64,000 bases of DNA from Flavobacterium sp. N502536 (lineage in GTDB: Bacteria > Bacteroidota > Bacteroidia > Flavobacteriales > Flavobacteriaceae): assembly GCF_025947345.1 (NCBI RefSeq), contig NZ_CP110011.1:4154001-4218000 (forward strand), written 5' to 3'. Both the position numbers and the translations under genes were made by a program. The notes beneath the pieces are model-generated. The model ran no database searches and was not told the origin of the DNA. It saw only the letters and a list, made by a program, of their open reading frames with translations. Below are positions 41,427 through 48,050 of this stretch, piece after piece (positions within the stretch are counted from its first letter, which is position 1; each line of letters starts with the position of its first letter).

Positions 41427-41732
41427 CTATTCGAATACAGGGCGAAGAAAAGTTCTCTCGTAACTTAGTATACAACGGGAATCTTCCGCAATTTTAAAAG
41501 TTTCAATACATTCCTGATCTTCCAAAATTAATCTTCTATAGTTTTCATATTCAGCTAAACTCGGGAAAGAAAACATTGCGAACGCAATATTATTAGCTCC
41601 TTCAGAAGGCATGAAGTAACCATGATGCTGACCGCCAAATCGGTTTACGAGTTTAATCCATCTTTTTCCATAATCTTCGAAAACAGCCAGTTGGAAAGGA
41701 TCTATTATGTATTTTAAATGACAAGTAATCAT
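41427..41732 (-). CDS. NIPSNAP-family protein inside the his operon
   Basis: 101 residues with the ferredoxin-like alpha-beta pattern of NIPSNAP domains: an N-terminal strand (ITCHLKYIIDPFQLAVFEDYGKRW), GQHHGYFMPSEGANNIAFAMFSFPSLAEYENYRRL, and a C-terminal strand. Function unknown. It sits between hisA (6 bases downstream of the hisA start side) and hisF on the same strand, so it is presumably expressed with the pathway; it is not a known histidine enzyme. Confidence 0.85.
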   Translation of the reverse strand: MITCHLKYIIDPFQLAVFEDYGKRWIKLVNRFGGQHHGYFMPSEGANNIAFAMFSFPSLAEYENYRRLILEDQECIETFKIAEDSRCILSYERTFLRPVFE

Positions 41733-46981: not shown

Positions 46982-47839
46982 CTAAAGAACCATTTTTTCG
47001 ATTGGGCAAACTAAAATTCCTTCGGCTCCGGCATCTTTTAATTTGTCAATGACATCCCAAAAAGTATCTTTGTCAATTACTGAGTGAACACTGCTCCATC
47101 CTTCCTGAGCCAACGGCAGTACGGTAAGGCTTCGCAAAACAGGCAGGATTTTTCCAATTTCATCGATCTTGTCATTTGGAACGTTCATCAGTATGTATTT
47201 TGAATTACGCGCTCTTAAAACGGACTGAATTCTAAATTTTAAGGTGTCGATGTGTTTTTGGATTTCCGGAGATACTTTTGGAGAAACAGCCAAAACGGCT
47301 TCACTTTTCAGAATTACCTCTACCTCTTTTAGATTATTTTTGAACAAAGTACTTCCGCTCGAAACGATATCTACAATGGCATCGGCCAACCCAATATTTG
47401 GGGCAATTTCGACAGAACCTGAAATTTGGTGAATATCGACTGTAAGGCCAAAAGAATTAAAATATTCGTTTACGGTATTGGGATACGAGGTGGCAACGCG
47501 TAGGCCTGCCAAATCTTGTATCGAATTGTATTCAAAGGCTTTAGGGACGGCTACAGAGACCTTGCATTTAGAGAATCCGAGTTTTTGAATCACTTCGATG
47601 TGTTTGGCTTTTTCAACAAGCAGGTTGTCACCAACGATGGCTAAATCTACGACTCCGTCAATGAGATATTGCGGAATGTCTGAATTTCGAAGGTATAAAA
47701 CTTCTAGAGGAAAATTGGAAGCCTCGGCTTTCAACTGATCGTTTCCGTTGTTGATTGAAATACCACAATCTTTAAGGATTTGAATACTGTCTTCGTTTAA
47801 TCGACCCGATTTTTGAATTGCAATTTTTAATGTACTCAT
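46982..47839 (-). CDS. hisG: ATP phosphoribosyltransferase, long form
   Basis: 285 residues, the HisG_L form with a C-terminal ACT-like regulatory domain (about 215-285; PVLRSLTVLPLAQEGWSSVHSV). The catalytic core has GLRVATSYPNTVNEYF and the PRPP loop DIVSSGSTLFKNNL (about 160). It catalyses the first step of histidine synthesis and is probably feedback-inhibited by histidine. It is the first structural gene behind the his leader. Confidence 0.95.
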   Translation of the reverse strand: MSTLKIAIQKSGRLNEDSIQILKDCGISINNGNDQLKAEASNFPLEVLYLRNSDIPQYLIDGVVDLAIVGDNLLVEKAKHIEVIQKLGFSKCKVSVAVPKAFEYNSIQDLAGLRVATSYPNTVNEYFNSFGLTVDIHQISGSVEIAPNIGLADAIVDIVSSGSTLFKNNLKEVEVILKSEAVLAVSPKVSPEIQKHIDTLKFRIQSVLRARNSKYILMNVPNDKIDEIGKILPVLRSLTVLPLAQEGWSSVHSVIDKDTFWDVIDKLKDAGAEGILVCPIEKMVL

Positions 47840-47886: not shown

Positions 47887-47920
47887 AAAAAAACCCGTTT
47901 GATGTACTCAAACGGGTTTT
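47887..47920 (-). terminator. his attenuator terminator
   Basis: On the minus strand AAAACCCGTTTGA and TCAAACGGGTTTT pair perfectly over 13 bases with a 5-base loop, followed by a run of Ts. It lies between the leader peptide and hisG. Confidence 0.88.
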
Positions 47921-47947
47921 AAAATATGATGATTTACACACATACCA

Positions 47948-48007
47948 TTAACACATCGCCTGAGAGCAATAATGAAAATGATGATGATGTAATTGAATAG
48001 AAATCAT
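47948..48007 (-). CDS. hisL: his leader peptide
   Basis: A 19-codon frame from ATG at 48007 to TAA reads MISIQLHHHHFHYCSQAMC. Five of seven consecutive codons are His (four in a row, then Phe, then His), the mark of a histidine attenuation leader. It lies between a TATATTTG box and a 13-base terminator hairpin upstream of hisG. Confidence 0.9.
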   Translation of the reverse strand: MISIQLHHHHFHYCSQAMC

Positions 48008-48042
48008 GACTTGTTTTGTTTTTTAATTCTTTGATTCGGTTG

Positions 48043-48050
48043 CAAATATA
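48043..48050 (-). promoter_or_regulatory. -7 box of the his operon
   Basis: The minus strand reads TATATTTG, an exact TAnnTTTG match, 36 bases upstream of the leader start codon. No TTTG is seen at the -33 distance. Confidence 0.65.

Follow-up and report, generated by a model that had tools for sequence, protein, structure and literature searches.

How is the histidine operon of Flavobacterium sp. N502536 controlled from the short region in front of its first gene, and does this region hold more than a classical attenuator? The window, i.e. the whole stretch of 64,000 nucleotides that was analyzed, carries the operon on the minus strand in the order hisG-D-C-B-H-A-NIPSNAP-F-IE, where some of the gene names were assigned from operon position. 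The first gene, hisG (46982..47839, start at 47839), encodes ATP phosphoribosyltransferase, with the Pfam domains HisG PF01634 and HisG_C PF08029. A NIPSNAP-domain gene of 101 aa (41427-41732, minus strand) lies between hisA and hisF.

An earlier note on this DNA had described a box, a 19-codon frame with a run of His codons, a perfect 13-base hairpin and a T-run upstream of hisG, and direct reading of the sequence together with placement by script confirmed these features and their coordinates (all on the minus strand). The box, TATATTTG at 48050-48043, is of the Bacteroidota -7 type and fits the consensus TAnnTTTG. It is followed by a leader ORF of 19 codons (48007-47948, ATG to TAA) that reads MISIQLHHHHFHYCSQAMC. 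The sensing codons, four His, Phe and His (47972..47989), double as a strand of segment 1, and the motif CAYCAYCAYCAYTTYCAY occurs only once in the whole genome, at the his leader. Segment 2 (CUCAGGCGA, 47956..47964) consists of the Ser-Gln-Ala codons near the end of the leader ORF and is the antiterminator partner of segment 3. The terminator hairpin 3:4 (AAAACCCGTTTGA-GTACA-TCAAACGGGTTTT, 47920-47890) has 13 bp without mismatch, a GUACA loop and an energy of -17.4 kcal/mol, and ends in a run of seven T's (47893-47887), the first four of which are paired within the stem. Segment 3 (GUUUGAGUACA, 47903..47913), made up of the upper 5' arm and the loop of the terminator, is the partner common to segments 2, 4 and 5. 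The last of these, here called element 5 (UGUACUCAGAC, 47874-47864), is an 11-nt complement of segment 3 and lies behind the terminator, 24 nt 5' of the hisG start.

Conservation of the leader was analyzed in 227 distinct hisG loci, obtained from three genome draws after removal of overlaps. HisG was found in 64/100 relatives, 103/120 family members and 66/149 class members, and genomes without HisG are uninformative here; in 8/227 loci there was no ATG near the HisG match and the position of the match was taken as the start. A short His-rich ORF (7-45 codons, upstream of hisG, 3 or more His within 8 residues) was present in 216/227 loci of the class, compared to 98/2,270 dinucleotide shuffles and 14/227 reverse strands. 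The statement of the earlier note that the run of His codons is hard to explain by chance is thus borne out, and with a stricter limit of at least 4 His in 8 the difference was 181/227 loci vs. 10/2,270 shuffles. The note had also asked for a search upstream of hisG in relatives for His-run frames followed by a terminator; this search found both in 201/227 loci. In a named set of 80 hisG loci, which were the best matches listed, all of the 79 that could be scored had a His-rich leader (79/79 among these best matches). The 216/227 loci suggest that leader-peptide attenuation of his is the rule and not the exception in the class as sampled.

The enterobacterial his attenuator works by three alternative pairings, 1:2, 2:3 and 3:4. 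The 2:3 duplex, between the 5' arm of the terminator and the end of the leader ORF, was significant (p≤0.05) in 154/201 loci where about 10 were expected, and had p = 0.035 in the window. The evidence for the 1:2 protector helix, formed by the His codons with the region behind them, is weaker than for 2:3, as it reached p≤0.05 in 87/136 genera but only p = 0.149 in the window. When the nascent RNA was folded at the stage before arm 4, the mean pairing of segment 3 with upstream sequence was 0.43 without a ribosome; masking one at the second His codon raised it to 0.62, and masking one at the stop codon lowered it to 0.32. Upstream pairing of segment 3 was higher with the ribosome masked at the second His than at the stop codon in 133/136 genera, a contrast that is partly built in, as segment 2 lies under the mask when the ribosome is at the stop codon. 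Because the His-codon ORF, the terminator and the competing antiterminator are conserved over the class, leader-peptide attenuation is the best reading of this region. The earlier proposal of a his leader-peptide attenuator, with a presumed response to histidine, is accordingly supported both by this conservation and by the ribosome-mask folding (133/136 genera).

The enterobacterial hisL leader (Rfam RF00514, His_leader) is similar in that a His-codon leader ORF and a terminator precede hisG, as seen in the E. coli K-12 region that we examined. The window, however, scored only 33.9 bits against RF00514 (E 0.00089), below the gathering cut-off of 49 bits, and among 20 further diverse hisG loci none (0/20) reached the RF00514 cut-off or matched any other Rfam leader family. 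For both these reasons the leader is not filed under RF00514, although it works like it. The earlier note had called the pattern hardly described in Bacteroidota, and this has to be corrected: clues for leader-peptide attenuation, with a structured 5' element before hisG, were published for Flavobacterium psychrophilum by Guerin et al. 2021 (PMC9723704), in the parts of that paper available to us. That element precedes the same gene in the same family, and attenuation of amino-acid operons was already suspected there. The account differs from ours in its content, as its main text names hisG once and never histidine, and neither a leader sequence nor an antiterminator or a post-terminator element is given in its section 19. 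In the available part of their paper, Naville and Gautheret 2010 (PMC2965389) describe leader peptides as known, ermC apart, from Proteobacteria and Actinobacteria only, before their own bacilli case, and attenuation comes up a single time, with reference to S. enterica and E. coli, in the accessible text of a paper about Bacteroidota his genes (PMC8305728). The his attenuator itself is ordinary in kind and partly in print.

What a classical attenuator does not include is element 5, which lies past the T-run where the earlier note ended. In the window the 3:5 duplex consists of 11 nt, UGUACUCAGAC with GUUUGAGUACA, and its p value of 0.005 is the lowest possible with 200 shuffles. We tested 196/201 loci, the remaining five having less than 12 nt downstream, and found the duplex at p≤0.05 in 109/196 where about 10 were expected; 67 loci reached 0.005. 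It was significant in 39/44 genomes of the window genus and in 56/101 other genera of the family. In the other families of the order it was present in f2 (2/3), f3 (1/1), f5 (4/4), f7 (1/3) and f15 (3/3) and not significant in f9 (0/3), f13 (0/1), f14 (0/1) and f16 (0/2). Outside the order, 3/30 sampled families of the class had a significant match (f37, f51 and f35, 1/1 each) and 27/30 had none. The match in f35 (locus L110) looks like a chance one, as it has another sequence and lies 49 nt from the start. Two loci from other families were complementary by eye; the duplex test gave no support for one of these (L047, p = 0.896) and supported the other (L048, p = 0.04). Among the best matches that form the named set, 71/79 loci paired at 11 of 11 positions, seven at 10 of 11 and one at 8 of 11. 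Both the leader and element 5 are present in F. johnsoniae strain CI04. In the named Flavobacterium set the columns of element 5 were conserved at 0.96-1.00, with the exception of one at 0.89 and one at 0.77, the latter being A and otherwise mostly G (U-A to U.G), and the flanking columns ranged from 0.38 to 0.96.

We also looked for a similar element behind the terminators of other leaders in the same genomes and found it in 0/19 trpE, 0/10 ilvD and 1/6 pheA leaders that were testable. The median spacers were 47 nt for trpE, 30 nt for ilvD and 8.5 nt for pheA, and trpE alone is a close control for his. The idea that element 5 is a generic trait of leader-peptide operons is unsupported by these counts, which for pheA and ilvD come from short spacers. 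Likewise, the his leader of E. coli K-12 showed no post-terminator segment that pairs with the 5' arm of the terminator (p = 0.83), and in this respect hisL is unlike the leader in the window. Apart from the his leader, the genome has 14 exact copies of TTGTACTCARRC, 13 of them in a 240-nt repeat array and one in an apparent intergenic repeat. As a separate observation, C1 has 13 copies of TTGTACTCAAAC (2500246-2504817, L334-L346) whose spacings are multiples of 240 nt, apparently a tandem repeat, with another copy at 130766 in an apparent intergenic repeat.

Covariation of element 5 with segment 3 is better tested on the loop than on the arm, which is held more tightly in the 2:3 and 3:4 stems, although the loop is not wholly free of other pairing, as the 2:3 duplex reaches into it in some loci. 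Only hairpins that share the common core entered the covariation set, which comprised 132 loci from 90 genera; element 5 was located by pairing of the core alone before the loop bases were scored, and 79 genera were scored after 11 without a fully paired core site were dropped. The table of core positions was drawn from loci preselected for pairing. Loop bases were paired with their own element in 0.79 of the cells, compared to 0.60±0.02 when loops were reshuffled among the 79 genera (the highest of 5,000 reshufflings being 0.686). With one locus per loop type (36 types) the mean was 0.695 (draws 0.631-0.741) vs. 0.536±0.034, highest 0.663, and registers slid by 1-3 gave 0.30-0.50, at most 0.503. 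To take kinship into account we used a HisG tree of 63 taxa with full HisG, i.e. 40 of the 54 family loci in the covariation set for which only the region was at hand and 23 others, with the thinning of the former mainly within the two commonest loop types. On this tree 229/298 loop-element pairs were formed, whereas independent evolution of the element gave 170±11, with 203 as the highest of 1,000 simulations. The tree requires no fewer than 21 switches from one Watson-Crick pair type to another, 1, 7, 4, 6 and 3 at loop positions 1-5. Loop position 1 alone is uninformative (reached in 426/1,000 runs), and positions 2-5 were reached in 0, 3, 3 and 4 of 1,000.

We reject a promoter or a protein-binding site as the reason for element 5, since neither would require its bases to vary in step with the terminator loop. 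Taken together, the post-terminator element 5 appears to be a new part of the his leader, and its pairing with segment 3 is well supported by the covariation. The open-access literature that we searched held no description of a post-terminator partner of a terminator arm.

In 49/66 genera element 5 ends 12-17 nt from the hisG ATG, a spacing that includes a one-base overhang; per genus, and likewise with the overhang included, the median distance to the ATG was 15 (10-90% 13-32.5) and the median gap to the T-run 18 (10.5-32). For the Flavobacterium loci of the named set this distance is about 25 nt, and not 12-17. A significant 3:5 was missing from 45/101 family genera outside the window genus, 41 of them with a called terminator. 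In 13 of these 41 terminator-bearing genera the spacer was shorter than 30 nt (in 28 it was not), vs. 0/56 genera with element 5. The available part of a study on F. johnsoniae (PMC6847099) reports that its messages lack SD sequences and that initiation is partly tuned by mRNA structure. According to the same source (PMC6847099) nucleotides -20 to +20 tend to be unpaired, an effect that is subtle and more marked among genes with high translation, and the position given for bS1 would let it touch nt -12 to -15. In 49/66 genera element 5 ends near this contact region.

We propose the following mechanism for the his leader. With scarce histidyl-tRNA the ribosome would stall on the His codons and leave segment 2 free to pair with segment 3; the formation of 2:3 would prevent the terminator, and RNA polymerase would continue into hisG. 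With ample histidine the ribosome would reach the leader stop codon and cover segment 2, and 3:4 would end transcription. Since RNA polymerase passes the terminator before it reaches element 5, this element cannot influence termination there. In readthrough transcripts segment 3 would have three rivals, 2, 4 and 5. A 3:5 pairing that starts at the loop may keep the lower terminator stem in a pseudoknot and so place a structure beside the hisG start, which would lower hisG translation when no ribosome is stalled; under starvation, 2:3 would prevent this. An mRNA already made could then still obey the leader ribosome. The calculated energies are -17.4 kcal/mol for the terminator, -7.6 for its lower eight pairs alone, -13.9 for 3:5 and -10.0 for 2:3, and they make it plausible that the lower terminator stem persists in a pseudoknot with 3:5 replacing the upper part. 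Nested folding of the full leader, which does not allow pseudoknots, kept 3:4 dominant (means 0.91, 0.87 and 0.91), and the accessibility of the hisG start was the same across ribosome states (0.575 with none, 0.564 stalled, 0.566 at the stop codon), so the translational step has no support from such folding. We think that element 5 putatively controls hisG translation. We give about an even chance to a his leader in which ribosome-mediated attenuation of transcription is joined by a second layer of control, probably at the level of translation. The same, middling confidence applies to the fuller statement that one RNA arm has three rivals (the antiterminator partner, the terminator strand and element 5 as partner of the loop), by which the leader ribosome would govern the operon at the level of transcription and hisG also at that of translation, either in cis or by way of the released leader RNA.

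A complication arises in Flavobacterium and some other lineages. There the region around the hisG start codon is a further possible partner of element 5, and such pairing could turn the effect of element 5 into its opposite. In the window (L002) and at other loci the loop region of the terminator, UGAGUACA, is identical to hisG bases 2-9 (AUGAGUACA), so that element 5 can pair with either. This opens for an alternative where element 5 pairs with the hisG start region and blocks translation, and the start-like segment 3 removes element 5 and turns hisG on. In the window element 5 does pair with AUGAGUACAU (-10.9 kcal/mol), nested folding predicts a helix there, and in 15/79 genera a GUAAA loop equals bases 5-9 of the start ATGAGTAAA. 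In the 14 genera that combine a GACAA loop with the ATGAGTAAA start, however, element 5 follows the loop and fits the start poorly. Over the 79 genera the match between element 5 and the start bases was hardly above that of shuffled ones (0.642 vs. 0.616±0.014, reached in 82/2,000), and the likeness between loop and start was slightly above shuffled (0.627 vs. 0.594±0.013, 19/2,000), both uncorrected for kinship. Moreover, the sign would be wrong, since with 2:3 formed under starvation the start would stay blocked. We therefore reject the start as the only partner of element 5 as a general rule, given the GACAA-loop genera and the near-shuffled matching in 79 genera, and of the alternatives that we considered the removal of element 5 from the start by segment 3 is the least probable.

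A simpler possibility is that the leader is a plain classical attenuator, the parts of which suffice for regulation, and that element 5 has no regulatory job of its own, its match with segment 3 being a by-product such as the remnant of a duplicated leader or a weak post-terminator structure. The many relatives without a significant 3:5 (45/101 other genera of the family, 27/30 sampled families outside the order) speak for this. Yet a relic is not expected to track the loop, as element 5 does base by base with at least 21 pair-type switches on the tree, nor does it agree with a conservation above that of most flanking columns or with the lack of such an element from those trp and ilv leaders of these genomes that could be tested. 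We regard this explanation as unlikely, if the least unlikely of the alternatives. Loop-first complementarity is common in RNA-RNA contacts, and the S. meliloti trp attenuator RNA, rnTrpL, reportedly acts in trans. Similarly, the terminated his leader RNA, which would be abundant with ample histidine, may bind element 5 of the hisG mRNA via its loop and repress it; a 3:5 duplex (-13.9 kcal/mol) between two separate molecules would be free of the steric constraint of the loop. Against this, the match was to the leader's own operon in every locus tested and the other copies of TTGTACTCARRC lie in the repeat array or, in one case, in an apparent repeat; trans action as the main explanation appears improbable and slightly more so than a plain attenuator.

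Besides the his leaders of enterobacteria and F. psychrophilum, three further systems come closest. In the Bacillus subtilis trp leader, TRAP exerts transcription attenuation and, in readthrough RNA, also controls translation of the first gene, with the difference that the sensor is a protein and not a ribosome on a leader peptide. Another is B. subtilis tlrB (yxjB), where, according to the available part of the report, stalling of the leader ribosome lifts both a terminator and a second structure, by which the start site of that gene is otherwise hidden (PMC6851288). It differs in sensing tylosin and not an amino acid, and that part of the report identifies no overlapping antiterminator (PMC6851288). 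The LEU element of actinobacterial leuA differs from the his leader in that the accessible portion of its description mentions no terminator and the run of leucine codons itself pairs with the Shine-Dalgarno box; its authors think classical attenuation unlikely there. Compared to the E. coli K-12 leader, where it was not seen, element 5 is an addition behind the terminator that follows the loop of the latter. Were it to govern the translation of hisG, the leader ribosome could switch off mRNA already made, and this would amount to a two-level amino-acid attenuator with structure-based translational control in a phylum that starts translation without the help of Shine-Dalgarno sequences.

The earlier note had further counted two leaders in one window and taken this as a sign that the phylum uses ribosome-mediated attenuation more widely than annotated. 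The second leader is indeed there: a GTG-started frame, VQNSIIIISVITVNVIITSARGMV (32833-32759, minus strand), precedes ilvD and is followed by the terminator AAACCTTCCAAATACTGGAAGGTTT (32735-32711, minus strand). Ile/Val-rich ORFs also precede ilvD in several relatives. We searched for trpE, pheA and ilvD leaders in 31 genomes each, where the leader was taken as the best-scoring ORF by residue content, a choice that is clearly wrong for some rows. With this procedure trpE had WWW leaders (WW in a few) and a terminator in 20/21 loci, pheA had Phe-rich ORFs and a terminator in 18/21 loci, and ilvD had Ile/Val-rich ORFs in part and a terminator in 10/17 loci. The wider claim for the phylum is thus a fair one, as the genus also has WWW trp, Phe-rich pheA and in part Ile/Val-rich ilvD leaders. 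The genome of the window itself has two such loci (L306 and L237, at ~524 kb and 1,255 kb): a WWW leader, MKTIMNNTWWWKNLRRTS, stands before trpE and a Phe/Tyr-rich ORF before pheA, and both have a terminator. At one trpE locus of family f2 (L319) there are apparently two tandem tryptophan leaders with two terminators before the gene.
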